NCBI RefSeq assembly: GCF_000473365.1
Contig: NZ_KI421517.1
Coordinates: 765,363 to 829,362, forward strand
Direction: 5' to 3'
From: Adhaeribacter aquaticus DSM 16391
GTDB taxonomy: Bacteria > Bacteroidota > Bacteroidia > Cytophagales > Hymenobacteraceae
DNA: 64,000 nt
A model generated the notes under the pieces. That model was not told the origin of the DNA, did not search any database, and worked only from the letters and a program-made list of their open reading frames with translations. A program made the position numbers and the translations under genes. Below, piece by piece: positions 6,489-55,788 of this stretch (positions within the stretch are counted from its first letter, which is position 1; each line of letters opens with the position of its first letter).

Positions 6489-6552
6489 TGTAAGCTTCCC
6501 CGAAAATAGAACTGTTTCTAAATAGAAAAAAACTTAATTTAGAACAGTAGAT

Positions 6553-6819
6553 ATGAAAAGGAAGACTTTTACACCCCAACAGATTGCCAAAATTCTCAAG
6601 GAGTTTGAGGACGGCAAAAGTGCCGCAGAAATTAGCCGGGACCATGGCGTTAGCCAGGCGGCCTTTTACAAGTGGCGGCAACGCTATAATGGCATGGATG
6701 CCACTGAGCTGAAGCGGCTCAAGGAACTAGAAGAAGAAAACCGGCGGCTGAAGTCTATGTATGCAGAGCTGGCTTTGGACCTAAAACTAGCCAAAGAGAT
6801 TATTGAAAAAAAGCTCTGA
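6553..6819 (+). CDS. IS3-family transposase OrfA (helix-turn-helix protein)
   Basis: An 88-residue protein with an N-terminal helix-turn-helix ([39 protein letters not shown], residues about 6-45) and a leucine/glutamate-rich coiled-coil ([20 protein letters not shown]) that mediates dimerisation. OrfA binds the IS ends. Its 3' end contains the heptamer A AAA AAG at 6807-6813, a classic -1 slippage site in the correct phase, allowing an OrfAB fusion transposase. The start ATG at 6553 follows the left inverted repeat closely. Confidence 0.92.
6807..6813 (+). promoter_or_regulatory. Programmed -1 frameshift site between orfA and orfB
   Basis: A AAA AAG lies in the orfA frame as GAA AAA AAG near the end of the gene. 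A -1 shift moves ribosomes into the orfB frame, which is open from just after a stop at 6804. IS3 elements typically make the active OrfAB transposase this way. Confidence 0.75.
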
Positions 6820-6842
6820 AGCCCTGCCAAAAGCGGCAAATA

Positions 6843-7652
6843 GTGCTTGAGGTTTACCAGCAGTCTCAAGCCGGCATTAGCAGGGCGTGCCGGGTGGTGA
6901 ATTTGAGCAAATCAGTTTACTACTATCAGTCGCACAAAGATGATGTTGTAGTAGAAGAAGCATTACGGCAAAAAGCGGAGCAGCACCCCAGAGAAGGATT
7001 CTGGAAAGCCTATGGGCGGTTGCGAAAAGAAGGCCAGGAATGGAATCATAAGCGGGTATACCGGGTATATAAAGCCATCAACTTAAACATCCGGCGCAAA
7101 GCCAAAAAGCGTTTACCCGCCCGCGTGCAACAGCCTTTACAAGTTCCCCAGGCATTAAATCACACCTGGTCAATCGACTTTATGAGTGATGCGTTAGAAA
7201 ACGGAAGAAAATTCCGTTCCTTCCATGTGCTGGATGATTATAACCGCGAAGCTTTGCATATTGAAGTAGATTATTCCTTAAAGAGCAACCGGGTAGTATG
7301 GGTGCTTAATCATTTGTTAAAGCGAAGGGAAAAACCAAAGCGCATCCGAATGGATAACGGACCGGAGTTTATTGCCACGCTTATGGCCGAATGGAGCCAG
7401 ATGCATGAAGTAGAGTTCATCTATATCCAGCCAGGTAAGCCCACGCAGAATGCCTATGTAGAACGTTTCAACGGGACTTTTCGCCGACATGTACTAAATG
7501 CTTACCTATTCGAAAACCTGGAAGAAGTAAGGGATATTACAACCAGCTGGCTAGAAGATTACAACTACAACAGGCCGCATGATGCACTTGGAGGGTTAGC
7601 ACCAATAGAATTTGCAAAGAAAAAACAACACCAACAATTAGTGTCAATTTAA
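6843..7652 (+). CDS. IS3-family transposase OrfB (DDE integrase core)
   Basis: The 269-residue protein from a GTG at 6843 carries an HTH_21-like N-terminal region and the retroviral-type integrase core. The catalytic triad is visible: Asp112 in WSIDF, Asp171 in RMDNGPEF and Glu207 in NAYVERFNG, giving D(58)D(35)E spacing as expected of IS3. [10 protein letters not shown] near the C-terminus is also conserved. The frame extends upstream to the slippage site at 6807, so the functional product is probably the fusion spanning 6553-7652 rather than OrfB alone. No inactivating change is seen. Confidence 0.93.
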
Positions 7653-7697
7653 ACAAATTTTATACTTTTAATCAGTTCTAATTAGGGGAAGCTTACA

Positions 7698-11040: not shown

Positions 11041-11071
11041 AAAAGGCCGCCAATTATTAGCAGCCTTTCTG
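11041..11071 (-). terminator. Terminator of the MFS transporter gene
   Basis: AAAGGCCGC and GCAGCCTTT form a 9-bp stem with one mismatch around an AT loop, with a T-run (TTTTTTG) on the minus strand. Confidence 0.6.
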
Positions 11072-41184: not shown

Positions 41185-41898
41185 ATGTCGGTTTCAGCAA
41201 ACGAAGGTGTAAGTTTTAAAACTGTTATAGTTGATGATGATCCTTTTTCTGCGAAGGTATTAGAAAAATTTGTTCAGAATATTGAGTTTCTAGAGCTGAA
41301 AAATGTTTGTCATAGTAGCCTGGAGGCTTCTAAGCTGCTGCGCTCAGAGCCAGTAGATTTATTAATTCTGGACGTTGAAATGCCCGAAATGTCGGGCTTG
41401 GATTTGATCTCTACTTTAAACCGTGAAGCAATGGTTATTATGGTAAGTGCCAGCCGGGACTATGCTGTAGAAGCCTTTGAACAAAACGTGGTTGATTATT
41501 TAGTAAAGCCTGTTACTTATCCTCGTTTTCTTATTGCTGCCAATAAAGCTTTAGAAAAAGTAAAATCGCAACAAACCCAAGCTTCCTCAGAATTTACTTT
41601 TGTCAAGGTAGAGCAAAAGTTAGTTAAAATTATTTTTACTGAAGTCCTTTATATTGAAGCTCTTGGTGATTATGTACACATTATTTCTAACAATAAGAAA
41701 ACCATCGTGTACTCTACTATGAAATCCATCGAGAACAAATTTCCGGGCAATAAATTTATCCGGGTTCACCGATCTTTTATAGTAAACATTGATAAGATTG
41801 GTGCTATTGAAGATAATAACATCCTGATTGGAGATAAGTATATTCCAATTGGCGCTACTTATTTAAAAGGAGTTATACAGGTTTTAAACCGGTTCTAA
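41185..41898 (+). CDS. LytTR-family response regulator
   Basis: A 237-residue regulator with a receiver domain (VDDDP at 16-20; phosphoacceptor Asp63 in LLILDVEMPEMSG; Lys in LVKPVTYP) and a C-terminal LytTR DNA-binding domain (FTEVLYIEALGDYVHIIS, KSIENKFPGNKFIRVHRSFIVNIDKI). The receiver is normally phosphorylated by a histidine kinase; none is encoded beside it, so it is an orphan in this window. It stands alone, with an A+T-rich upstream region. Targets are unknown. Confidence 0.93.
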   Translation: MSVSANEGVSFKTVIVDDDPFSAKVLEKFVQNIEFLELKNVCHSSLEASKLLRSEPVDLLILDVEMPEMSGLDLISTLNREAMVIMVSASRDYAVEAFEQNVVDYLVKPVTYPRFLIAANKALEKVKSQQTQASSEFTFVKVEQKLVKIIFTEVLYIEALGDYVHIISNNKKTIVYSTMKSIENKFPGNKFIRVHRSFIVNIDKIGAIEDNNILIGDKYIPIGATYLKGVIQVLNRF

Positions 41899-42270
41899 CA
41901 CCTTCCGCTACCTAAAATTGATTTTGTCTTTCTTTTTTATATCCCTAAATTCTTTTTTAAAGGATTTTATGGGCGTGTAGCGTTTGCAAATCGTAGCAAA
42001 ATAGCTGACAAACTTTTTAAGGTGCTAGTTTTAGTTAGCCCCTCCCCCGCCATTTTATAGAGCAATAGCCCTAAGTGTTGGTCCATTTTGCTATCTTTCC
42101 TAAGTAGCTTTTTAGATTTAGCACTAATAAATAAAACCATTATTTCCTTTCTACTTCCTTTCCGGGTTATTTCACATAACATCTTCTGGCTTTCAGATAA
42201 TTATCAGCAACTATTTTAAAAATTTAGTAAATTCGCTATTGCATCGAGTTTGCTTCTTGAATTTTTTGTA
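41899..42270. other. Intergenic region upstream of the first FG-GAP gene
   Basis: About 370 bp. A 71-codon minus-strand open frame (41967-42182) has no recognisable content. No repeat or RNA is evident. Confidence 0.5.
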
Positions 42271-45200
42271 ATGAAAATCAAATATCTATTCTTCTTTTCT
42301 CCCCTTCTTTTTTTATTTACCCAGTGTAATTTAATAAAACAGAAAGAGCCTCTTTTTACATTGCTTAGCCCGGGCGATACCGGTGTAAAATTTAACAACA
42401 CTATTACTGAAACCGATACTTTTAATGTCCTGACCTTCGGGTACATTTATAATGGTGGCGGTGTAGCAGTAGGCGATGTAAATAATGATGGATTACAAGA
42501 CCTTTACTTTTCAGGTAATATGGTTTCCAGCAAACTATACCTTAATAAAGGCAACTTTAAATTTGAAGATATTACACTTTCTTCGGGTACCGGAACAAAA
42601 ACCTGGATTAACGGTGTAACCATGGCCGATGTAAACCAAGACGGTCTTTTAGATATTTATGCCAGCACTGTAAATCCTATTGCGGGTCAGCCGCAAACAC
42701 CTAATCTGCTTTTTATTAACCAGGGACTAAATAAAGAAGGCAAACCTACCTTTAAGGAAGAAGCGAAAAGCTATGGTTTAACCGATGCCGGTTCCAGCAC
42801 CCAGGCAACTTTTTTTGATTTCGATCAGGACGGCGACCTCGACATGTACTTGTTACGCAATGCGCCAGATGGCACCATGAATCCCAATATTTACCGCCCT
42901 AAAGTAGCCAATGGTCAATCGCCAAGTAACGACCGGCTTTACCGGAACAACGGGGACAATACGTTTACCAATATTTCAAAAGAAGCCGGCATTCAGATGG
43001 AAGGACGGGGCTTAGGAATGGCCATTAGTGATATTAACCAGGATGGTTGGCCAGATATATATGCGGCAAATGATTTTTTAACGAACGACCTGCTTTGGAT
43101 AAATAATAAGAACGGGACTTTTACTAACCAGGCTGCCCAGTACCTGAAGCATTCCAGCTACAATGGCATGGGCACCGACATTGCCGATTATAATAATGAC
43201 GGCTTACCAGACATTATTGAAATGGACATGCTGCCGGAAGATAATAAACGGCAGAAAACTACCATGGACGGGCCAAATTATGACCGTTTTCAATTAAACA
43301 AGCGTCTTGGTTACGAAAATCAATATGTGCGCAATACTTTACAGTTAAACAATGGCAACGGTACGTTCAGCGAGATAGGTCAGCTGGCCGGCGTATATGC
43401 TACCGACTGGAGTTGGAGTCCGCTCTTTGCTGATTATGACAATGATGGTTTGCGCGACTTGTTTATTACCAATGGTTACCTAAAGGACATGACTGATCTG
43501 GATTATATGCATTATCGCTCCGAAGAATCCATGTTTGGGTCAGCCGAAGCCATAGAAGCCAAACTGAAAACTGAATTTAACAAATTAAAAAGTGTTGTTA
43601 TCCCGAACTATATTTATCAGAACCGGGGCGACCTGACGTTTGCCGACAAGACGAAGGATTGGGGACTGGAGGAGCCATCCAATTCCAATGGAGCCGCTTA
43701 TGCAGACTTAGACAATGACGGTGATCTGGACCTGGTGGTCAACAACCTCAACAGCGAAGCCTTCATCTACCAGAACAACGCCCAGCAGCTAAACCAGAAC
43801 CACTACCTGAACCTGCGTCTGCAGGGAGCAGCTCCCAACCGGGAAGGTATCGGTGCCACTATCCGGATCAAATACAAAGGCCAACAGCAGTTCTATGAAC
43901 ACTACCCTACCCGCGGCTACCAATCCTCGGTAGACCCGACAGTACACTTTGGTTTAGGTAAAACAGCTGTTGTTGATTCTTTAGAAGTTATCTGGCCGGG
44001 TGGCAGGTACCAGCTACTTCGCAACGTTAAGCCCAACCAGATCCTGGTTTTAGATATCCGCCAGGCTACGGGCACCAAACCTGCCCCTAAACCAGCACCA
44101 GCACCTTTGTTCACAGAAGCATCTTCTTCTTTTGGCATTGCTTACAAACACGAAGAAGATGATTTTATTGACTTCAAGAACCAGCCCTTAATGCCCCACA
44201 AGCTCTCGCAGGGAGGACCCGGTTTAGCCGTAGGTGATGTCAACGGAGATGGCCTGGATGACTTTTTTGTGGGCGGCAGCGCCCGCCGCAGCGGCACCAT
44301 CTTTTACCAGAACCACCAGGGCAAGTTTACTTCCCGGCCTTTAACTTCAGTGCCCAACACCGAAGATGACATGGGTGCTTTGTTTTTTGATGCCGATAAC
44401 GATAAAGACTTAGACTTGTATGTAGCCACTGGTGGCAATGAATACCTGAACATGCCCCAGAACTATCTGCATCGCTTATACAAGAATGATGGCAAAGGCA
44501 ACTTTACCTTAGATGAAAATGCTTTGCCACGCATTACCAGCAGCGGCTCTTGTGTAACGGCCGCTGATTATGATCAGGACGGGGATCTGGATTTGTTTGT
44601 AGGTGGCCGCAATAATCCGCGGCAGTACCCGATGCCGGGGCAGAGCTGTTTGCTCAGAAACAATGGCGGCACCTTTACCAACCAGACCGCCAGCTTGTGT
44701 AAAGAGCTGGAGACGATTGGTATGGTGACGACCGCTTTGTGGACAGACTTTGACCAGGACGGGCAGGTAGACTTACTGGTAGCCGGCGAGTGGATGCCGC
44801 TGACTTTCTTTAAGAACAACAAAGGCAAATTTACCAATGTAACCGCCAGTACAGGTTTAACCCATACCGAAGGCTGGTGGAACAGTTTACTGGCCGCAGA
44901 CTTTGATAATGATGGAGACATGGATTATGTAGGTGGTAACTTAGGGCTGAACTCCCGCTATAAAGCTTCGCCGGAGCAGCCGGTAACCATTGTGGCCAAA
45001 GACTTTGACAAGAGCGGTAACGTGGATCCGGTAATGGGCTATTATATCCAGGGGCAGAATTACCCGGCACCCGCCCGGGATGCGCTTACCGATCAGATGG
45101 TGATGATGCGCAAGCGTTTCCCCCGGTATGCGGATTATGCCGAGACTACTTTTGAAAAGCTGTTTACAAAAGAAGAACTGGAAGGCGCTTATACGGCCAG

Positions 45201-45804
45201 GAGTTATACCTTTCAGAGCAGCTACATCGAGAACGTAGGCAATGGCAAGTTCCAGATCAAAGCGTTACCCATGCCGGCGCAGGTAGCCCCGGTGTTCGGC
45301 ATGGTGGCTTCGGATTACAACCAGGACGGCAACCTGGACTTGCTGCTGGCGGGTAACTCCTATGCTCCGGAAACGGCAGTAGGTTATTACGATGCCGCTT
45401 ATGGTACTTTACTAACGGGTAATGGTAAAGGAGGCTTTGCCGCAGTAGCGCCCAAGCAAACAGGTTTTGCCGTGAAAGGAGATGCTAAAGCGATGGTGCA
45501 GTTGTTAACCAGGGATAAAGAGCCATTAGTACTGGTGAGTCAGAACAGTGACAGCCTGAAAGTATTCCGCAGCAAAGCAAAAGCAGAGTACCAGGTAGTG
45601 CCCCTGCAGGCTACCGATGCTTATGCTGAGCTGGAGTTCAACAACGGTAAGAAACGCAGAGAAGAATTCTGCTATGGAACCACTTACCTCTCCCAATCTT
45701 GTAGAACTTTGGTAGGTAAAGACTTAGCTTCTGTGTACATAACTAATTCTCAGGGCAAACGCCGGCAGATAAATTTAGATCCGAAAGTAATTGCTCTTAA
45801 ATAG
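42271..45804 (+). CDS. FG-GAP/VCBS-repeat lipoprotein with ASPIC/UnbV domain, copy A
   Basis: The 1,177-residue lipoprotein (lipobox FTQC, Cys19) contains several FG-GAP repeats with calcium-binding D-x-N/D-x-DG loops (GDVNNDGLQDLYF, DYDQDGDLDLFV) forming probable beta-propellers, and an ASPIC/UnbV segment (LNLRLQGAAPNREGIGATIRIKYKG, VDPTVHFGLGKTAVVDSLEVIWPGG). Such proteins are exposed and thought to bind carbohydrate or mediate adhesion. Residues about 454-1147 are encoded by a 2,084-bp tract repeated inverted in the gene at 47223-50747. The N-terminal third is similar but diverged. I use the ATG at 42271, which starts the signal peptide, rather than the frame's earlier start at 42250. Confidence 0.88.
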   Translation: MKIKYLFFFSPLLFLFTQCNLIKQKEPLFTLLSPGDTGVKFNNTITETDTFNVLTFGYIYNGGGVAVGDVNNDGLQDLYFSGNMVSSKLYLNKGNFKFEDITLSSGTGTKTWINGVTMADVNQDGLLDIYASTVNPIAGQPQTPNLLFINQGLNKEGKPTFKEEAKSYGLTDAGSSTQATFFDFDQDGDLDMYLLRNAPDGTMNPNIYRPKVANGQSPSNDRLYRNNGDNTFTNISKEAGIQMEGRGLGMAISDINQDGWPDIYAANDFLTNDLLWINNKNGTFTNQAAQYLKHSSYNGMGTDIADYNNDGLPDIIEMDMLPEDNKRQKTTMDGPNYDRFQLNKRLGYENQYVRNTLQLNNGNGTFSEIGQLAGVYATDWSWSPLFADYDNDGLRDLFITNGYLKDMTDLDYMHYRSEESMFGSAEAIEAKLKTEFNKLKSVVIPNYIYQNRGDLTFADKTKDWGLEEPSNSNGAAYADLDNDGDLDLVVNNLNSEAFIYQNNAQQLNQNHYLNLRLQGAAPNREGIGATIRIKYKGQQQFYEHYPTRGYQSSVDPTVHFGLGKTAVVDSLEVIWPGGRYQLLRNVKPNQILVLDIRQATGTKPAPKPAPAPLFTEASSSFGIAYKHEEDDFIDFKNQPLMPHKLSQGGPGLAVGDVNGDGLDDFFVGGSARRSGTIFYQNHQGKFTSRPLTSVPNTEDDMGALFFDADNDKDLDLYVATGGNEYLNMPQNYLHRLYKNDGKGNFTLDENALPRITSSGSCVTAADYDQDGDLDLFVGGRNNPRQYPMPGQSCLLRNNGGTFTNQTASLCKELETIGMVTTALWTDFDQDGQVDLLVAGEWMPLTFFKNNKGKFTNVTASTGLTHTEGWWNSLLAADFDNDGDMDYVGGNLGLNSRYKASPEQPVTIVAKDFDKSGNVDPVMGYYIQGQNYPAPARDALTDQMVMMRKRFPRYADYAETTFEKLFTKEELEGAYTARSYTFQSSYIENVGNGKFQIKALPMPAQVAPVFGMVASDYNQDGNLDLLLAGNSYAPETAVGYYDAAYGTLLTGNGKGGFAAVAPKQTGFAVKGDAKAMVQLLTRDKEPLVLVSQNSDSLKVFRSKAKAEYQVVPLQATDAYAELEFNNGKKRREEFCYGTTYLSQSCRTLVGKDLASVYITNSQGKRRQINLDPKVIALK
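43630..45713. repeat. Inverted repeat copy A, 2,084 bp
   Basis: This tract is nearly identical in reverse orientation to 47314-49397; both are 2,084 bp with no indel, and encode the same residues. The only difference I noted is at 45699 (T versus C). Identity falls off at codons just outside both ends. Confidence 0.9.
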
Positions 45805-45836
45805 AAGGAAATTAGATTCAGTTAAATCAATAGTAA

Positions 45837-45870
45837 AAACAAAGGCGGCCAAGATTGACCGCCTTTGTTT
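45837..45870. terminator. Bidirectional terminator between FG-GAP copy A and GH27
   Basis: AAACAAAGGCGG (45837-45848) pairs exactly with CCGCCTTTGTTT (45859-45870), with A- and T-runs. It lies between the convergent ends of copy A and the GH27 gene. Confidence 0.85.
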
Positions 45871-45884
45871 TTAAACCTACAAAA

Positions 45885-47123
45885 TCATTTTGTTAGCAAT
45901 AACATGGTTACATCATGCTTGGGTATAACGGTTTTAAAATCTTTCTTGGTCGTGCCTACATCTTTCTTAGTCCAAAGATTACGCACTTTATAAGTCACTT
46001 TATTTGTATTCAACTCCATTTTAGATAGATCATCGGTAATGGGGTTATCTTTCCATTTAAACTCTACCGTTTGCGGTTGTTCAGAACGATTAAGAAAACA
46101 AATGGCCCAATTCCCATTACTTAATGGCTTTAACCACGTTTCGATTCCGTCTTTAGAAGAATGCCGAAATCCCTGAATTCCTAACTTATCCTGATTTACT
46201 GCAATTACTTCCTTGTTTGTCAGGACTTGAACCGTTTCCTTGCTCATCTTGCGCAAATCATTACCGGCAATTAAAGGTGCAGCTAACATGGTCCAGATAG
46301 AAAAATGAGCCCGATCTTCATTAACAACCATACCATTTCCTACTTCCAGCATGTCCGGGTCGTTCCAATGGCCGGGACCAGCGTATTGCCGTAGCCCCTC
46401 TTGCTTATCAGCTATTTTCATTACGCCCCAGGATTTCCAGGTGCCATGGTCTTCCACACAATCAAAACAGTTAAAGATATCACCAGTAGTCCGCCACAAG
46501 TGCCCTACCGATTGGCCCCAGGTCCAGGGTTTATCAGTACCCCACTCACAGATACTTAAAACCATAGGTCGGCCAGCCTGGCGTATTGCTGCCGTAAAAG
46601 TTTTATAAGCACCCTCCGCCTTTAAGCCTTCGGTGTTGCACCAATCATATTTTACATAGTCTACGTCCCAGCTGGCATAGGTTTTTGCATCCTGAAATTC
46701 GTAGCCGCGGCTACCCGGACGCCCCCCACAGGTTTGTGAACCCGCATCCGAATAAATACCAAACTTTAAGCCCTTCGCATGAATATAATCTGCCAAAGCT
46801 TTCATGCCCGATGGAAAACGTTTTGGGTCTTCATGAATAAAACCTAAACTATCGCGGTCCCCGTGCCAGCAATCATCAATATTGATGTACGTATAACCGG
46901 CATCTTTCATTCCGGTGGCCACCATGGCATCAGCTATTTCCCGGATCATTTTTTCATCGACGTTACAGGCAAATTTGTTCCAGCTGTTCCACCCCATAGG
47001 AGGCGTTAATGCCAATCCTTCAAATTTCTTGTAGTTCTGTACGTAGTTGTTTCCCTGACTAATGGCTGAAACTGACAGCGTTAAACTAAATACAAGGAGC
47101 AGTATTGTTTTAAAATGACACAT
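45885..47123 (-). CDS. Alpha-galactosidase, glycoside hydrolase family 27
   Basis: A 412-residue exported enzyme (signal MCHFKTILLLVFSLTLSVSA) with the GH27 fold: LTPPMGWNSWNKFACNV, YVKYDWCN with nucleophile Asp160, and TTGDIFNCF with acid/base Asp215. ICEWGTDKPWTWG and GHWNDPDMLEVGNG are also conserved. It removes terminal alpha-galactose, as from melibiose, raffinose or galactomannan; some relatives act on alpha-GalNAc. The gene is enclosed by the two inverted 2,084-bp tracts, so recombination between them could reverse its orientation. It is transcribed toward copy A. Confidence 0.94.
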   Translation of the reverse strand: MCHFKTILLLVFSLTLSVSAISQGNNYVQNYKKFEGLALTPPMGWNSWNKFACNVDEKMIREIADAMVATGMKDAGYTYINIDDCWHGDRDSLGFIHEDPKRFPSGMKALADYIHAKGLKFGIYSDAGSQTCGGRPGSRGYEFQDAKTYASWDVDYVKYDWCNTEGLKAEGAYKTFTAAIRQAGRPMVLSICEWGTDKPWTWGQSVGHLWRTTGDIFNCFDCVEDHGTWKSWGVMKIADKQEGLRQYAGPGHWNDPDMLEVGNGMVVNEDRAHFSIWTMLAAPLIAGNDLRKMSKETVQVLTNKEVIAVNQDKLGIQGFRHSSKDGIETWLKPLSNGNWAICFLNRSEQPQTVEFKWKDNPITDDLSKMELNTNKVTYKVRNLWTKKDVGTTKKDFKTVIPKHDVTMLLLTK

Positions 47124-47191
47124 AAACTTTGTTTAAGTTAGACGTTTGTTTTTTAAGTGAATAGAATTAAAGCTTTTTGTTGAGTACAATC

Positions 47192-47214
47192 AAAAGAAGA
47201 TGTTACCTTCTTTT
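47192..47214 (-). terminator. Hairpin after FG-GAP copy B
   Basis: AAAAGAAG (47192-47199) pairs with CTTCTTTT (47207-47214). It lies just after the copy B stop codon on the minus strand, with a modest T-tail. Confidence 0.5.
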
Positions 47215-47222
47215 TTGTTGGG

Positions 47223-50200
47223 TTAAATACCAGCAACAGATCTCCCAGCCAGATCGATGGCTCGCTTATTTCCTTTAAAATCAGTAATAGTAACTTTGGA
47301 TGCATTTTGCACCACCAAAGTTCTACAGGATTGGGAGAGGTAAGTGGTTCCATAGCAGAATTCTTCTCTGCGTTTCTTACCGTTGTTGAACTCCAGCTCA
47401 GCATAAGCATCGGTAGCCTGCAGGGGCACTACCTGGTACTCTGCTTTTGCTTTGCTGCGGAATACTTTCAGGCTGTCACTGTTCTGACTCACCAGTACTA
47501 ATGGCTCTTTATCCCTGGTTAACAACTGCACCATCGCTTTAGCATCTCCTTTCACGGCAAAACCTGTTTGCTTGGGCGCTACTGCGGCAAAGCCTCCTTT
47601 ACCATTACCCGTTAGTAAAGTACCATAAGCGGCATCGTAATAACCTACTGCCGTTTCCGGAGCATAGGAGTTACCCGCCAGCAGCAAGTCCAGGTTGCCG
47701 TCCTGGTTGTAATCCGAAGCCACCATGCCGAACACCGGGGCTACCTGCGCCGGCATGGGTAACGCTTTGATCTGGAACTTGCCATTGCCTACGTTCTCGA
47801 TGTAGCTGCTCTGAAAGGTATAACTCCTGGCCGTATAAGCGCCTTCCAGTTCTTCTTTTGTAAACAGCTTTTCAAAAGTAGTCTCGGCATAATCCGCATA
47901 CCGGGGGAAACGCTTGCGCATCATCACCATCTGATCGGTAAGCGCATCCCGGGCGGGTGCCGGGTAATTCTGCCCCTGGATATAATAGCCCATTACCGGA
48001 TCCACGTTACCGCTCTTGTCAAAGTCTTTGGCCACAATGGTTACCGGCTGCTCCGGCGAAGCTTTATAGCGGGAGTTCAGCCCTAAGTTACCACCTACAT
48101 AATCCATGTCTCCATCATTATCAAAGTCTGCGGCCAGTAAACTGTTCCACCAGCCTTCGGTATGGGTTAAACCTGTACTGGCGGTTACATTGGTAAATTT
48201 GCCTTTGTTGTTCTTAAAGAAAGTCAGCGGCATCCACTCGCCGGCTACCAGTAAGTCTACCTGCCCGTCCTGGTCAAAGTCTGTCCACAAAGCGGTCGTC
48301 ACCATACCAATCGTCTCCAGCTCTTTACACAAGCTGGCGGTCTGGTTGGTAAAGGTGCCGCCATTGTTTCTGAGCAAACAGCTCTGCCCCGGCATCGGGT
48401 ACTGCCGCGGATTATTGCGGCCACCTACAAACAAATCCAGATCCCCGTCCTGATCATAATCAGCGGCCGTTACACAAGAGCCGCTGCTGGTAATGCGTGG
48501 CAAAGCATTTTCATCTAAGGTAAAGTTGCCTTTGCCATCATTCTTGTATAAGCGATGCAGATAGTTCTGGGGCATGTTCAGGTATTCATTGCCACCAGTG
48601 GCTACATACAAGTCTAAGTCTTTATCGTTATCGGCATCAAAAAACAAAGCACCCATGTCATCTTCGGTGTTGGGCACTGAAGTTAAAGGCCGGGAAGTAA
48701 ACTTGCCCTGGTGGTTCTGGTAAAAGATGGTGCCGCTGCGGCGGGCGCTGCCGCCCACAAAAAAGTCATCCAGGCCATCTCCGTTGACATCACCTACGGC
48801 TAAACCGGGTCCTCCCTGCGAGAGCTTGTGGGGCATTAAGGGCTGGTTCTTGAAGTCAATAAAATCATCTTCTTCGTGTTTGTAAGCAATGCCAAAAGAA
48901 GAAGATGCTTCTGTGAACAAAGGTGCTGGTGCTGGTTTAGGGGCAGGTTTGGTGCCCGTAGCCTGGCGGATATCTAAAACCAGGATCTGGTTGGGCTTAA
49001 CGTTGCGAAGTAGCTGGTACCTGCCACCCGGCCAGATAACTTCTAAAGAATCAACAACAGCTGTTTTACCTAAACCAAAGTGTACTGTCGGGTCTACCGA
49101 GGATTGGTAGCCGCGGGTAGGGTAGTGTTCATAGAACTGCTGTTGGCCTTTGTATTTGATCCGGATAGTGGCACCGATACCTTCCCGGTTGGGAGCTGCT
49201 CCCTGCAGACGCAGGTTCAGGTAGTGGTTCTGGTTTAGCTGCTGGGCGTTGTTCTGGTAGATGAAGGCTTCGCTGTTGAGGTTGTTGACCACCAGGTCCA
49301 GATCACCGTCATTGTCTAAGTCTGCATAAGCGGCTCCATTGGAATTGGATGGCTCCTCCAGTCCCCAATCCTTCGTCTTGTCGGCAAACGTCAGGTCACC
49401 CCTGTTCTGATAAATATAATTCGGGATTTTTACTTTAGGCGCACCCGCTAACTCTTTCTCTCTTTCCTTCACCGAAGAGGCATCTCCAAAACTAATAGCA
49501 TCCTGCTGGTAATGCACATAATCTAAATCGGTAATATCCCGAACATACCCATTGGTAATAAATAAGTCGCGCAAACCATCGTTGTCATAATCAGCAAAGA
49601 GCGGACTCCAACTCCAGTCGGTAGCATATACCCCGGCCAGTTGACCTATCTCGCTGAACGTGCCGTTGCCATTGTTTAACTGCAGGCTGTTCCGGATATA
49701 CTGTATTTCGTAGCCCATTTTTTTATTCAACTCAAAGCGGTCGTAGTTGGGCCCATCCATGGTGGTTTTCTGCCGTTTATTATCTTCCGGCAGCATGTCC
49801 AGCACCATTATATCTACTAATCCATCGTTGTTAAAGTCTGTAATATCAGTACCCATAGCATTGTAGCTGGTGTGCTTCAGGTATTGGGCGGCTTTATTGG
49901 AGAAGGTGCCATTTTTATTATTTATCCAAAGTAAATCATTACTTATAAAATCATTAGCCGCATAAATATCCGGCCAGCCATCCTGGTTAATATCACTAAT
50001 TCCTACCCCTAGCCCCCAGCCTTCCGTCTGAATTCCGGCTTCTTTGGAGACATCCGTAAATGTGTTATTGCCATTATTCCGGTAAAGCCGATCGGTATTA
50101 TTGTTTTGGCCCCGGGTAAGCTTATAATTAGGGTTATTTCGATTAGTTCTATCGGAGGCATTGGTGAGCAAGTACATGTCCAGGTCACCGTCCTGATCGT

Positions 50201-50747
50201 AATCAAGAAAAGCAGCTTGCGTACTATAACCTTTATCAGCTAAGCCATAAGCCTGCGCCTCCTCCTTAAAGCTTAGGTTTCCTGTTTTATCAATTCCCTT
50301 ATTTATAAACAGGAGATTAGGCGCGCCTTCTATGCTATTGGGTTTGATGGTGCATACATAAATATCTAAAAGGCCATCCTGGTTAATATCAACCATGGTT
50401 ACGCCAGTTACCCAAAGGTTAGTATTTACTCCAGCCGGAGCACTAATATCCTCAAATTTTAATTTGCCTTTATTTAAATATAACTTACTAGAAACCAGGT
50501 TGCCTCCAAAAAATAAATCGGTTAATCCATCATTATTTACATCACCGGCGGCTACGCCTGCGCCGTTATAGATATAAATAAAATTTAAAATGTTCAGGGA
50601 ATCGTTTTCCGAAATGGTGTTACTAAAATTTATACCTGTATCTGTTGATTTTAGTAAGGTATACAACGGCTTCTCCCTTTTAAAGAAGTGGCATTGCGGC
50701 AGAAGCGCAAGAGAAAAAAATAAAAGTAGAAGGGATTTAAAATTCAT
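47223..50747 (-). CDS. FG-GAP/VCBS-repeat lipoprotein with ASPIC/UnbV domain, copy B
   Basis: The 1,174-residue lipoprotein (lipobox LPQC, Cys19) is a full paralogue of copy A in the opposite orientation. Residues about 451-1145 match copy A in sequence, while the N-terminal region (SENDSLNILNFIYIYNGAGVAAGDVNNDGLTDLFF) is similar but diverged, and the C-terminal tail (VQNASKVTITDFKGNKRAIDLAGRSVAGI, given in parts) differs from copy A's tail. This pattern suggests recent gene conversion or recombination limited to the middle. It ends 100 bp after the GH27 gene's start codon and may share control with it. Confidence 0.88.
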   Translation of the reverse strand: MNFKSLLLLFFSLALLPQCHFFKREKPLYTLLKSTDTGINFSNTISENDSLNILNFIYIYNGAGVAAGDVNNDGLTDLFFGGNLVSSKLYLNKGKLKFEDISAPAGVNTNLWVTGVTMVDINQDGLLDIYVCTIKPNSIEGAPNLLFINKGIDKTGNLSFKEEAQAYGLADKGYSTQAAFLDYDQDGDLDMYLLTNASDRTNRNNPNYKLTRGQNNNTDRLYRNNGNNTFTDVSKEAGIQTEGWGLGVGISDINQDGWPDIYAANDFISNDLLWINNKNGTFSNKAAQYLKHTSYNAMGTDITDFNNDGLVDIMVLDMLPEDNKRQKTTMDGPNYDRFELNKKMGYEIQYIRNSLQLNNGNGTFSEIGQLAGVYATDWSWSPLFADYDNDGLRDLFITNGYVRDITDLDYVHYQQDAISFGDASSVKEREKELAGAPKVKIPNYIYQNRGDLTFADKTKDWGLEEPSNSNGAAYADLDNDGDLDLVVNNLNSEAFIYQNNAQQLNQNHYLNLRLQGAAPNREGIGATIRIKYKGQQQFYEHYPTRGYQSSVDPTVHFGLGKTAVVDSLEVIWPGGRYQLLRNVKPNQILVLDIRQATGTKPAPKPAPAPLFTEASSSFGIAYKHEEDDFIDFKNQPLMPHKLSQGGPGLAVGDVNGDGLDDFFVGGSARRSGTIFYQNHQGKFTSRPLTSVPNTEDDMGALFFDADNDKDLDLYVATGGNEYLNMPQNYLHRLYKNDGKGNFTLDENALPRITSSGSCVTAADYDQDGDLDLFVGGRNNPRQYPMPGQSCLLRNNGGTFTNQTASLCKELETIGMVTTALWTDFDQDGQVDLLVAGEWMPLTFFKNNKGKFTNVTASTGLTHTEGWWNSLLAADFDNDGDMDYVGGNLGLNSRYKASPEQPVTIVAKDFDKSGNVDPVMGYYIQGQNYPAPARDALTDQMVMMRKRFPRYADYAETTFEKLFTKEELEGAYTARSYTFQSSYIENVGNGKFQIKALPMPAQVAPVFGMVASDYNQDGNLDLLLAGNSYAPETAVGYYDAAYGTLLTGNGKGGFAAVAPKQTGFAVKGDAKAMVQLLTRDKEPLVLVSQNSDSLKVFRSKAKAEYQVVPLQATDAYAELEFNNGKKRREEFCYGTTYLSQSCRTLVVQNASKVTITDFKGNKRAIDLAGRSVAGI
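47314..49397. repeat. Inverted repeat copy B, 2,084 bp
   Basis: Reverse complement of 43630-45713. Just outside, at 49398, copy B has T where copy A has C, and beyond that the match becomes patchy, so these coordinates mark the near-identical core. Confidence 0.9.
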
Positions 50748-51000: not shown

Positions 51001-52533
51001 TTAATAACCAGAATTTTGTTTCAATTCTGAATTGCTAAGAATAGCTTGTTGCGGAATTGGCAGGATATCTTTTCCACTAGGAATAGTAATACCAAATTCG
51101 TCTCTTACATAATTCTTATGCTCACCTGATCTTCTTAATAAGAACCATAACGACATCTCACCAGATAACTCGTGACGGTATTCTTCTATGATGATATCTT
51201 TAAACGCTTTGTTAGCCGGAGCCGGAGCTAAACCAGCTCTTTTCCGTATGGTGTTATTGATTAATTCGCGCGCGGCAGCTTCCTGTCCGCTTCTCCATAA
51301 AGCTTCGGCCTTACTTACATAAACTTCACCTAAACGCATCATGATAACATTCTGACCATTGAAAATAGTCTGTGGGTTACCAGTACTGCCTCTTACGTTC
51401 GGATCTCTCCAGGTTTTTACACTGTAGTAACCTGAACGAAGACCATCAGAACCTTTCCAAGGCTTTTCTTTCGTGCCAAGAGTATTGATACCACCAAATA
51501 GTTCTTTCACTTTAGGATAAGCGCTAATTTGAATAGCCGGGCTAGGGTGTGTATCGCCTGGGCCAATTACAGTAGGCATCTTTCTTTTATCGTCCTGCTC
51601 AAAAGAAGTATACAATTTCGGATCGGCGTAGCCATAACCAAAGTTGGTAATTTCTTCCGGCATGTGGAAAGATGTAAACCAGATGGTTTCATCAGCGTGT
51701 CCCCAAGATTGATCAGCACCTTCTAAGAACTGTACTTCGAAAAGCGACTCATCATTATTCTGATTCGCATACTCGTGGATGTTAAGGAAATTTTCCTCTA
51801 ACTTATAACCACCCGCATCAATCATATCAAAGGTTTTAACTGCATCCGCATATTTCTTCTGCCACATTTCAGCAGAACCTTTATAAGCTAAAGCAGCACC
51901 TTTAGTAGCACGACCTAAGTTTGACCGGTCATTTTTATAGTTCCATGGTAACAGGTTAGCTGCCGTTTCCATGTCTTTAGCTACTTGCGCAAAAACTTCA
52001 TCCTGGGTGTTACGTGGGTGACGGCCTTCATCTGTTACAGTTTGTAATTCTAAAGGAACACCACCAAACATAGAAGCTAAATAATAATAGAATGTGCCTC
52101 TCAGAAAGTAAGCTTCCCCGTTTAACCGATTTGCTAAATCTTCGGTTATTACACCATCCGCTTTCATTTTAGCAACAATCGGGAATACAGAGTTAGCTCT
52201 GGCGATACCTTCGTAAGACTTAACCCAAGCAATGTTTAATGGGTCAAAGTTTGTTGGAACTTCATATGTTTCGAAGAAAACGTCAGCACCGTAATTGTGG
52301 AAATCCTGTGATAAGAAGTTAGCTCCATACCACAAAGATTTGTTCATAAAATCTGAATCGTGGAAGGTATCATAGATTGCGTTTACTAATCTAACACCAT
52401 CTTCAGGCTTCTTAAACAAAGATGCTTCGGAGATATTTCTAGTATCTGCCTCATCTAAAAAGTCCTTACAGCTTAGGGGCAGTAATGTAGCCACCCCCAA
52501 GGTAAGTATATATATACTTTTATTTAATTTCAT
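51001..52533 (-). CDS. SusD/RagB-family nutrient-binding outer-membrane lipoprotein
   Basis: A 510-residue surface lipoprotein (lipobox PLSC, Cys22, followed by KDFLDEADTRN). It has the SusD fold of TPR-like helices: NRLNGEAYFLRGTFYYYLASMFGGVPL, YKGSAEMWQKKYADAVKTFDMI and a C-terminal NTIRKRAGLAPAP/EYRHELSGEMSLWFLLRR stretch typical of the family. It captures a glycan and passes it to the SusC-like receptor encoded upstream (52564-55788), with 30 bp between them. The glycan is unknown. Confidence 0.94.
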   Translation of the reverse strand: MKLNKSIYILTLGVATLLPLSCKDFLDEADTRNISEASLFKKPEDGVRLVNAIYDTFHDSDFMNKSLWYGANFLSQDFHNYGADVFFETYEVPTNFDPLNIAWVKSYEGIARANSVFPIVAKMKADGVITEDLANRLNGEAYFLRGTFYYYLASMFGGVPLELQTVTDEGRHPRNTQDEVFAQVAKDMETAANLLPWNYKNDRSNLGRATKGAALAYKGSAEMWQKKYADAVKTFDMIDAGGYKLEENFLNIHEYANQNNDESLFEVQFLEGADQSWGHADETIWFTSFHMPEEITNFGYGYADPKLYTSFEQDDKRKMPTVIGPGDTHPSPAIQISAYPKVKELFGGINTLGTKEKPWKGSDGLRSGYYSVKTWRDPNVRGSTGNPQTIFNGQNVIMMRLGEVYVSKAEALWRSGQEAAARELINNTIRKRAGLAPAPANKAFKDIIIEEYRHELSGEMSLWFLLRRSGEHKNYVRDEFGITIPSGKDILPIPQQAILSNSELKQNSGY

Positions 52534-52563: not shown

Positions 52564-55500
52564 TTAAAACGTTACATTCAAGCCAAGGCCAAAGAATTTA
52601 GATAAAGGATAAGTTCCTACATCAATACCTGCCATGGTTACGTTTCTATTCCCAGTATTTGGATCAGCTACCTGACCAATTTCAGGGTCTAAACCAGAAT
52701 ATTTAGTGAAGGTTATTAAGTTCTGAGCGCTTACAAATACTCTGATCTTGTTGATATTAGCTCTCTGTGCAAAAGTACCTGGAATAGTATAACCAATTTG
52801 TAAATTTCTTAATCTTAAATAGCTACCATCTTCTACATAAGCATCAGACGGACGCGTGTTACCATTAAGATCAGGACGAGTTACTCTTGGATAAATATCC
52901 GACGGACGATCTGCTCTCCAGTAGTTGTTGTAGTAATCTAAACCAACGTTCTGTAAACCAATACCACCTTGCGTAGCACCAAAATTCTGAAGAACTCTGC
53001 TGGTGTAGTTGAAGATGTCGTTACCTACAGATGCATACCAGAACATGTTCATGTCGAAGTTCTTAAAAGTTGCATCTAAGTTAAGACCACCAAAGAATTT
53101 AGGTAGTGGACTTCCAATAATAGTACGGTCTTCTGTTGTAATACGGCCATCACCATTTAAGTCAACAAACTTACGGTCGCCGGGAACAGTAGTAGAAGCC
53201 TGATAGAACGTGTTTTCACCGTTTTTCTCAACAGCTGCTGTATTTAAAGCATCAATCTCAGCTTGGGTCTGGAAAATACCTGCGCTCTTATAACCGTAGA
53301 AAGCACCTACCGGGCCACCTACTTCAGAACGGCTAAACTCAACCCAGGTATTACCACCTACATTCGGGAAACCTAAACCACCAATGTTACCAATAGCATT
53401 TAAACCATCATACAAGCTTAAAATTCTATTTTTAACGGTAGTAATGTTTGCTCCAATACCATATTGGAAAGCTTTTTGAGATTCACGGTATTCAACGCCT
53501 AATTCAATACCACTATTACGGATACTACCTACGTTACGGGTTGCTACCGAGAAACCAGTTTGTGATGGAACCGGAATATCTAACAAGAAATCACGGGATT
53601 CTTTAATGTAATAATCTGCCGTGAAGGTTAGTTTATTATTCAGGAATGAAGCATCCAAACCTAAATCGCTCTGAACAGAAGTTTCCCATTTTAGGTTAGG
53701 ATTTGGTAAACCTTGTAAAGCAAAGCCTTCCTGATAAACCTTATTAAACGGATAACCTAAGTTGTTAATTGACAAATAGTTACCACCAGTATAATATTGA
53801 CCTAAATATCTAAATGGACCTATACCAGCCTGGTTACCAACACGGCCATAGCTAGCCCTTACTTTTAAGTCAGATAATACATTTACATCAGCAAGGAAAG
53901 CTTCGTTTTTAACTCTCCAGGCAATAGACGCAGATGGGAATACACCATAACGGTTATGTGCTGGGAATTTAGAAGAACCATCCCGTCTTACGGTTGCAGT
54001 TAATAAATATTTATCTGCGAAGTTGTAACTAACTCTACCGAATTGAGAAGCTAAAGAAGTGGCAACCTCATCTCCAAAAATGTTAGTGATAGTTTGTACG
54101 TTTCCTAAATTACGTAACCGGTCGCTAATTAGCCCCAGACCACTACCACCAATCCGGCGGAAGTTATTTTGCTGAAAAGAAAAACCACCTACGAAGTCAA
54201 TATTGTGCTGACCAAAAGCTTTGGTATAAGCAACAGTATTTTCCCACAAATAATCTACCGTATTATTAGCGCTCTGAGAATAATTAGCTAAAACAGGTGC
54301 CTGTAACCGCTCATGTGAAGGCGTAAAATAATAGCCAGAATAATCAGCGATATTAGTACCAAAGTTTGTTTTTAACCGAAGACCTTTCGCTAGTGTTGCC
54401 TCTAAATAACCAGAAGCTAATAAGTAGTTGTTTTCGTTTTTCTGATCCTGCGTCTGAATCAAAGCAACTGGGTTATCTAGGTAATTTACAGCTGTATTAT
54501 TTTTTGTAAAATAACCGTATTCACCATTTGGCCCTATTACCTGATCAGTAGCCGGGTTACCAGTCATGCTTGGAATTAACTTGGTTAAAGTACCAATACC
54601 AACTCCGGCATTCTGACCACCTGTACCTAAAGCAGTTCTGCTATTGCTACGGGTATATTTAATGCTGGAAGAAGCTTTTAACCACTTGGTAGCATTATAA
54701 TCTACGTTTACACTCGCGTTATAACGTCTGTAATTAGATCCTTCAACAATCCCTTTTTGATCTAAAAAGCCTAAAGAGAAAGCAGACTGTAACTTATCGC
54801 TACCGCCACGGATACCAACATTATAGTTTTGGCGAAGACCTGGACGATATAACTCTTCCTGCCAATCAATGTTACGTAAAGCAGCCGGATTACCCCACTC
54901 AGGTAGAGGTTGGAAATTATCTTCAGCCGCTCTTTCATTAGCTAATGTAGCAAATTGCTGAGCATTGGCTAATTTATACATTTTAGGTTTAGTTTGGATA
55001 GAGCTTAAAGCATCTAATGAAATTTGCATTTCACCGGCTTTACCCCGTTTAGTAGTTATAATAACAACCCCATTAGCCGCCCGGTTACCGTAAATTGCGG
55101 TAGCAGATGCGTCTTTTAATATTTCCATGGAGGCAATATCAGAAGGGTTGATTGTATTAATACCACCAGTGATTGGATAGCCATCTACTACGTAAAGAGG
55201 ATCGTTATTACCGAAACCACCTACACCCCGGATCTGTACATTTATACCAGCTCCCGGAGAAGCATCATTGTTAGTTACCTGAACCCCGGCAGAACGACCT
55301 TGTAAAGCCTGATCTAAAGTTGTAACCGGCGTTTTCTCAATTTGAGCAGCTGTTATAGAGCTGATAGCACCTGTTACATCTTCCCGTCTCTGTGTTCCAT
55401 AGCCTACCACAACCAACTCTTGTAAAGCTTTAGCATCATCAGATAACACAACATTGAAAGTAGCCGGACCTGTGTAAGCTTTCTCTTGTGAGGTATAACC

Positions 55501-55788
55501 AATATAAGAAAAAACTAAAGTTCCTGCCTTCTCAGGCACATCCAAGGTAAAGGATCCGTCCGGAGCAGTAGTAGTACCAGTTGTAGTACCTTTTACAATT
55601 ACTGTAACGCCTGGTAAACCTTCGCCGTCGCTAGAGGTAACTTTACCTTTTACCGGCCAGGCAATTGGTTTAACCGCCGCTTTTACAGAAGCAACTGCTG
55701 CTTTGGAGGTTACGCCTCCTCCTAATGCGAGCAGTAATAATAAACAGCAACTTTTGCGCTGCCAAGAATGGGTATTCTTTTTCTTCAT
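52564..55788 (-). CDS. SusC/RagA-family TonB-linked outer-membrane receptor
   Basis: A 1,074-residue receptor with signal, a CarboxypepD_reg-like domain (VKGKVTSSDGEGLPGVTVIVKGTT), TonB-box region (LQELVVVGYGTQRREDVTGAISS), plug and a long beta-barrel. The SusC-specific plug motif GRSAGVQVTNNDASPGAGINVQIRG is present. It imports a glycan fragment using TonB energy and forms a complex with the SusD-like lipoprotein encoded downstream. The gene starts a glycan-utilisation unit, with the AGE epimerase and symporter farther upstream on the same strand. Candidate -7 element TAAATTTG (complement, 55961-55968) lies in the AT-rich leader. Confidence 0.95.
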   Translation of the reverse strand: MKKKNTHSWQRKSCCLLLLLALGGGVTSKAAVASVKAAVKPIAWPVKGKVTSSDGEGLPGVTVIVKGTTTGTTTAPDGSFTLDVPEKAGTLVFSYIGYTSQEKAYTGPATFNVVLSDDAKALQELVVVGYGTQRREDVTGAISSITAAQIEKTPVTTLDQALQGRSAGVQVTNNDASPGAGINVQIRGVGGFGNNDPLYVVDGYPITGGINTINPSDIASMEILKDASATAIYGNRAANGVVIITTKRGKAGEMQISLDALSSIQTKPKMYKLANAQQFATLANERAAEDNFQPLPEWGNPAALRNIDWQEELYRPGLRQNYNVGIRGGSDKLQSAFSLGFLDQKGIVEGSNYRRYNASVNVDYNATKWLKASSSIKYTRSNSRTALGTGGQNAGVGIGTLTKLIPSMTGNPATDQVIGPNGEYGYFTKNNTAVNYLDNPVALIQTQDQKNENNYLLASGYLEATLAKGLRLKTNFGTNIADYSGYYFTPSHERLQAPVLANYSQSANNTVDYLWENTVAYTKAFGQHNIDFVGGFSFQQNNFRRIGGSGLGLISDRLRNLGNVQTITNIFGDEVATSLASQFGRVSYNFADKYLLTATVRRDGSSKFPAHNRYGVFPSASIAWRVKNEAFLADVNVLSDLKVRASYGRVGNQAGIGPFRYLGQYYTGGNYLSINNLGYPFNKVYQEGFALQGLPNPNLKWETSVQSDLGLDASFLNNKLTFTADYYIKESRDFLLDIPVPSQTGFSVATRNVGSIRNSGIELGVEYRESQKAFQYGIGANITTVKNRILSLYDGLNAIGNIGGLGFPNVGGNTWVEFSRSEVGGPVGAFYGYKSAGIFQTQAEIDALNTAAVEKNGENTFYQASTTVPGDRKFVDLNGDGRITTEDRTIIGSPLPKFFGGLNLDATFKNFDMNMFWYASVGNDIFNYTSRVLQNFGATQGGIGLQNVGLDYYNNYWRADRPSDIYPRVTRPDLNGNTRPSDAYVEDGSYLRLRNLQIGYTIPGTFAQRANINKIRVFVSAQNLITFTKYSGLDPEIGQVADPNTGNRNVTMAGIDVGTYPLSKFFGLGLNVTF

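Follow-up and report, generated by a model that had tools for sequence, protein, structure and literature searches.

In the outer-surface genes homA and homB of Helicobacter pylori, and in babA and babB as cited alongside them, the available parts of one report describe a 5′ segment that groups by gene and a 3′ segment that groups by strain, a conflict explained there by intragenomic gene conversion (PMC2795765). Long-lasting, recurrent concerted evolution is also documented in prokaryotes, with tuf and psbA/psbD among the examples given in the available text (PMC6053082). Here, we describe two convergent paralogous genes, A and B, in Adhaeribacter aquaticus DSM 16391 (assembly GCF_000473365.1), which lie in a 64,000-nucleotide stretch of contig NZ_KI421517.1 (positions 765,363 to 829,362; hereafter the window, whose numbering is used for this locus) and share an inverted repeat of about 2.1 kb (hereafter the tract). 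One known system of this phylum, in which DNA close to SusC/SusD-type genes is inverted, has a dedicated site-specific invertase; the likeness to the present locus lies in the phylum and in the SusC/SusD-type neighbors, and the differences are that the window holds no Phage_integrase or Resolvase match and that the repeat arms are long and coding.

The A/B pair resembles homA/homB in combining a divergent 5′ segment with a concerted 3′ segment in paralogous and, for A and B, putatively outer-surface genes, but homA and homB are roughly 90% alike and the evidence, in the portions of that report available, comes from strains of one species, whereas A and B are some 67 to 70% alike outside the tract, are FG-GAP/ASPIC genes, have a tract bounded on both sides, and lie inverted and close together (PMC2795765). 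The parallel with the second set of cases is that old paralogues with neighborhoods of their own are repeatedly equalized within genomes, as in a tandem pair of the same family (T1/T2) considered below; however, the genes treated there belong to core pathways and are treated whole, and the accessible parts of that paper do not mention FG-GAP/ASPIC proteins (PMC6053082). Among the matches listed from a limited literature set, nothing concerned gene conversion in FG-GAP/UnbV or SusD-linked lipoproteins. The A/B pair is an instance of segmental concerted evolution, a known kind of event of which this predicted lipoprotein family supplies a further case.

A near-identical segment in two convergent genes

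Gene A (42271..45804, forward strand; listed from a TTG at 42250, with the first ATG at 42271) and its paralogue, gene B (47223..50747, reverse strand), are open reading frames in which both Pfam domains exceed their curated cut-offs (FG-GAP_3, 287.3 bits in A and 282.2 bits in B; UnbV_ASPIC, 89.5 bits in each), the UnbV_ASPIC domain of B spanning residues 523 to 589. We consider it very probable that homologous recombination, resolved as gene conversion, homogenized about 2.1 kb of these long-diverged paralogues, with B most likely the source and A the recipient.

The arms of the repeat (43600..45713 in A, forward strand; 47314..49427 in B, reverse strand) are 2,114 bp each, align without indels, and are spaced by 1,600 bp (45714..47313). 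They differ at four positions (43608, 43624, 43629, and 45699 in A coordinates), all four differing codons being synonymous, and the longest exact run between them is 2,069 bp (43630 to 45698). Nucleotide identity over the tract is 99.8% (2108/2112), and 704 of 704 residues are equal. The match ends abruptly on both outer sides. Beyond it, the N-terminal parts of A (42271..43599, forward strand) and B (49428..50747, reverse strand) are only 69.4 to 69.6% identical (912/1314 or 910/1308 nt), and the C-terminal tails of about 29 residues each (45714..45804, forward strand, and 47223..47313, reverse strand) agree at 43 of 90 nucleotides and 9 of 30 residues. The same boundary is visible at four-fold degenerate sites, which are equal between A and B at 317 of 319 positions in the tract, at 42 of 100 in the N-terminal part, and at 2 of 6 in the tail.

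An earlier note, made from the sequence of the window, had placed indel-free copies of 2,084 bp at 43630 to 45713 and 47314 to 49397, with very few differing bases, the same encoded residues, and divergence of the genes on either side. Base-by-base alignment of the copies as reverse complements bears this out, with a single mismatch (45699) inside those limits, and extends the repeat by 30 bases and three further mismatches on the 5′ side of A. The many synonymous differences that the note had set as part of a ground for refutation are absent, four being the full count.

At a minimum length of 100 bp, the only other repeat in the window (588 bp at 80%) joins outer portions of the same two genes, and genome-wide the tract is present in two copies, plus one weak match (243 bp, 66%). 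One patch of A outside the tract (43345..43434, forward strand) is unusually close to B (87/90 nt, with a 50-bp exact run pairing 43393 to 43442 with 49631 to 49582) and is perhaps the trace of an older, shorter conversion. Both arms also contain a 115-residue antisense frame (44574 to 44921, reverse strand; 48106 to 48453, forward strand), most likely just a by-product of the coding sequence being duplicated.

Conflicting trees of flanks and tract

Synonymous near-identity is thus limited to one segment, and trees of the flank and of the segment conflict. The N-terminal tree groups A with six related genes (A-type; support 100/100) and B with two others (B-type; 99/97). In the tree of the tract, where A and B are identical, both fall beside the B-type genes (94/97). 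Constraining the A/B tract to group with the A-type genes gave, in the approximately unbiased (AU) test, p-AU values of 0.026 or 0.040, depending on the gene set used, the sets having been named after the tract tree was seen. At the protein level, the A/B tract shares 72 to 73% identity with the two whole B-type genes and 64 to 68% with the six whole A-type genes. Because the N-terminal part of A groups with A-type genes and its tract stands beside B-type genes, B is probably the donor and A the recipient, as judged from these groupings. As to a possible earlier exchange of the tails by inversion, the tail of A is closer than that of B to six of seven A-type rows, and the tail of B closer than that of A to one of three B-type rows, although some 29 residues are too few to weigh.

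The two gene types also occupy separate places in genomes of the same genus (genomes are designated G001 and so forth, and loci fetched from them L045 and so forth). B-type genes follow SusC-SusD in G004 and G006, and a broken remnant of one is so placed in G005. A-type genes occupy different loci: a LytTR or PAP2 homologue lies near the A-type gene in G002, G003, G005, and G006, and the 20 kb examined around those in G004, G009, and G018 contain none. PAP2 homologues also adjoin other family members (L057 and L058), so a PAP2 neighbor alone is not specific to the A-type. In G005, the B-type remnant lies at 11044 to 13031 of L045, and the A-type gene is spread over two reading frames (L051, 7277 to 10788).

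Three same-genus genomes have both gene types, and the facing arrangement is present in none of them; the distance between the A-type and B-type genes is 414 kb in G006, 570 kb in G005, and 2.69 Mb in G004. Where they are far apart, the two types are not homogenized: their tract regions are 66.9% identical in G006 (1411/2109; four-fold sites, 82/191; N-terminal part, 69.4%) and 66.4% identical in G004 (1400/2109; four-fold sites, 72/189; N-terminal part, 67.3%). A and B are, on these comparisons, old paralogues of one FG-GAP/ASPIC-UnbV family that were homogenized recently over the tract. Because they are homogenized where adjacent (one genome) and not where far apart (two genomes), proximity is suggested as a cause.

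The sequence of events may be pictured as follows. In this species, long-diverged A and B would have come into close, convergent positions, and a recent homologous recombination (presumably of the RecA type), resolved as conversion, would have copied some 2.1 kb from one gene to the other, most likely with B as the source. The converted segment would take in the second FG-GAP region along with the ASPIC domain and would stop where the genes become too unlike: on one side at the end of the N-terminal part (about 440 residues), on the other ahead of the 29-residue tail. An inverted layout would permit such exchange without gene deletion, since crossing over would invert the intervening DNA instead.

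Homogenization in other pairs of the family

A tandem pair of the same family, T1/T2, has C-terminal parts that are homogenized within each genome in G005 (L076, 281 to 7379), G229 (L131, 267 to 7371), G040 (L102, 239 to 7484), and, in part, G004 (L069, 321 to 7421), where the second gene is broken. Across these four genomes, which represent two families, the N-terminal parts of these genes group by gene (T1, 100/99; T2, 100/100) and the C-terminal parts by genome. Tract identity is 1775/1776 nt in G005, 1755/1776 in G229, and 1586/1752 in G040, and the longest exact runs are 1,771 bp (G005), 1,568 bp (G229), 224 bp (G040), and 104 bp (G004). In the residue numbering of B, the tracts extend over 441 to 1144 (A/B), 556 to 1147 (G005), 556 to 1145 (G229), and 565 to 1143 (G040), such that the right edge falls within five residues (1143 to 1147) in all four mapped pairs of two kinds. 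The left edge differs between A/B and the T pairs, and in the latter it lies inside the ASPIC domain. Tails weakly follow the gene in the T1/T2 pairs, as read from mean identities of 43% among T1 genes (n = 6) and 37% among T2 genes (n = 10), versus 25 to 38% between T1 and T2 of the same genome (n = 4) and 23% between T1 and T2 of different genomes. G006 has a lone T2-like gene (L145, 6256 to 9894), with no T1 partner seen in 16 kb.

We surveyed 53 distinct close pairs of the family: 52 from fetched loci (53 minus a duplicate, L141 being the same as L076) plus a pair in G508, whose best match is 65% over 444 bp. Homogenized C-terminal parts occur in 5 of the 53, namely, the window pair and the T1/T2 pairs of G005, G229, G040, and G004. 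These counts come from genomes chosen as relatives with matches rather than at random, and the pairs are not independent, several being orthologous and three-gene clusters counting three times. In some of the pairs without homogenization, short exact runs occur (70 bp at most, in L130) or 100-residue bins reach 79% identity (L120). Both of these loci (L120 in G217 and L130 in G009) are three-gene clusters that include convergent members; their patches of higher identity, with exact runs of 44 to 45 bp and 70 bp, respectively, are perhaps small conversions.

Because a second, tandem pair is homogenized in its C-terminal part, with N-terminus and tail remaining gene specific, the comparison suggests that the C-terminal part is interchangeable and that the identity of each protein may be carried by the N-terminus and the tail.

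Alternatives, neighborhood, and implications

Several observations weigh against the conversion account or its direction. The A/B event is found in one species only, and 48 of the 53 close pairs lack homogenization on this scale, so proximity is insufficient. One gene that is A-type by its neighbors (in G002) falls in neither clade, and support for B as donor is moderate, 94/97 being no starred branch and the AU gene sets being post hoc. That same moderate support, together with p-AU values no lower than those given above, leaves some room for conversion having run from A to B or for both genes having taken the tract from a third source. We regard this as unlikely: the tract protein is closer to B-type than to A-type genes, and the genome offers no third copy beyond the 243-bp match at 66%, on which ground a third copy as donor is rejected. 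Recent duplication of a whole gene is likewise rejected, the N-terminal parts being diverged and each having its own relatives. Purifying selection on the protein alone, with no exchange of DNA, would account for the identity of all 704 tract residues, but four-fold sites are equal at 317 of 319 positions here versus 82 of 191 in G006 and 72 of 189 in G004, and we reject this explanation on its synonymous sites as having practically no chance of being correct. An assembly artefact, named in the earlier note as a ground for refutation, would mean that one arm was a spurious copy of the other or had been merged with it. The genome is in four contigs and has one 16S gene versus two or three in four same-genus genomes of two to three contigs (same-genus drafts have none in G001 and G007 and one in G002), and some repeat collapse in this assembly is therefore possible. 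Against such an origin for the arms, they differ at four positions, have unlike, open flanks, each with its own set of matching orthologues, and belong to gene types that are about 67% identical elsewhere and too unlike for an assembler to merge; moreover, a 4.83-Mb contig passes through the repeat, and a 1,121-bp insertion sequence was kept as two identical copies on two contigs. As such, collapse is rejected as most improbable. What the note had offered as gene conversion, or simply a homogenized paralogue pair, has by comparison held up well, with equalized synonymous sites, abrupt edges, conflicting N-terminal and tract trees, and the same gene types unhomogenized where far apart.

The note had also pointed out that a crossover between the arms would reverse the segment between them and trade one tail for the other, which follows from the geometry, and had proposed a switch as one possibility. 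A selected, reversible switch would swap the 29-residue tails and move the intervening GH27-type alpha-galactosidase gene (Melibiase_2, 258.8 bits; 45885..47123, reverse strand) from behind B, and hence from a SusC-SusD-B series, to behind A, so that cells would differ in GH27 regulation and in tails. Its attractions are 2.1-kb near-identical inverted arms spaced by 1.6 kb, reading frames that stay open in both arrangements because the arms lie inside both genes, and a GH27 gene that shares the strand of B, starts 99 bp past the stop of that gene, and has a terminator-like hairpin at its 3′ side (45834..45873, in the gap separating the 3′ end of GH27 from that of A; 18 pairs, from a consensus scan only). 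On the other side, co-transcription of GH27 with B is uncertain because an A-T-rich, hairpin-like stretch follows the stop of B (read by eye), both gene types lie 0.4 to 2.7 Mb apart in three same-genus genomes, and the tandem pairs are likewise homogenized with no inverted layout. None of the 11 Phage_integrase matches of the genome is in the window (the nearest is about 71 kb left of its start), nor is any of its 5 Resolvase matches, the search having covered these two recombinase families. We find no positive evidence for the proposed switch and consider it very unlikely. As with long inverted repeats in general, a low rate of inversion is probable between these arms; after one such event, GH27 would stand behind A, and the hairpin would stay 3′ of GH27. 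A broader proposal, which we hold to be distinctly improbable, is that the C-terminal module (ASPIC plus the second FG-GAP region) is repeatedly equalized up to a fixed right edge, with the N-terminal part and tail matched as specificity parts, and that ordinary recombination here also flips GH27 between two transcription units.

Relatives of the GH27 gene, at 78 to 79%, occur in two of seven other same-genus genomes, and a promoter consensus scan around it returned 11 sites versus 16.0 in shuffles. Upstream of B lie a SusD-like gene (51001..52533, reverse strand; SusD-like_3 and SusD_RagB) and, before it, a gene (52564..55788, reverse strand) that is 75 to 77% identical to genes preceding SusD and the B-type gene in G004 and G006. 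We take the latter to be a putative SusC-like gene by its position rather than by a family scan. Upstream of A is a LytTR response regulator gene (41185..41898, forward strand; Response_reg and LytTR), a homologue of which adjoins the G002 gene. Both A and B have a hydrophobic N-terminus with a cysteine (read by eye) and are predicted lipoproteins; a putative glycan-binding role is plausible from the SusC, SusD, and GH27 neighbors. With a cut-off at an E value of 0.01, a single sequence relative of solved structure was found, cartilage acidic protein 1 (entry 9etn). An AlphaFold model of B, built from 5 sequences, has a mean predicted local distance difference test score (pLDDT) of 53.9 and a predicted template modeling score (pTM) of 0.40, and in an NCBIfam scan A had a single match, which fell short of the cut-off, and B had none. 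The insertion sequence mentioned above lies at 6540 to 7660, contains two transposase-like frames, and has its identical 1,121-bp copy on contig C4; it is presumably of the IS3 type.

The A/B pair provides a before-and-after comparison, in that the same genes are about 67% identical throughout when apart, in two relatives, and 99.8% identical in the tract when side by side, as here. Because of the repeat, the way in which assemblies orient the GH27 segment is not to be taken on trust. For the protein family itself, which is little studied, the fact that homogenization recurs in a second pair, in genomes of two families, suggests a division between interchangeable and identity-carrying parts of these proteins.

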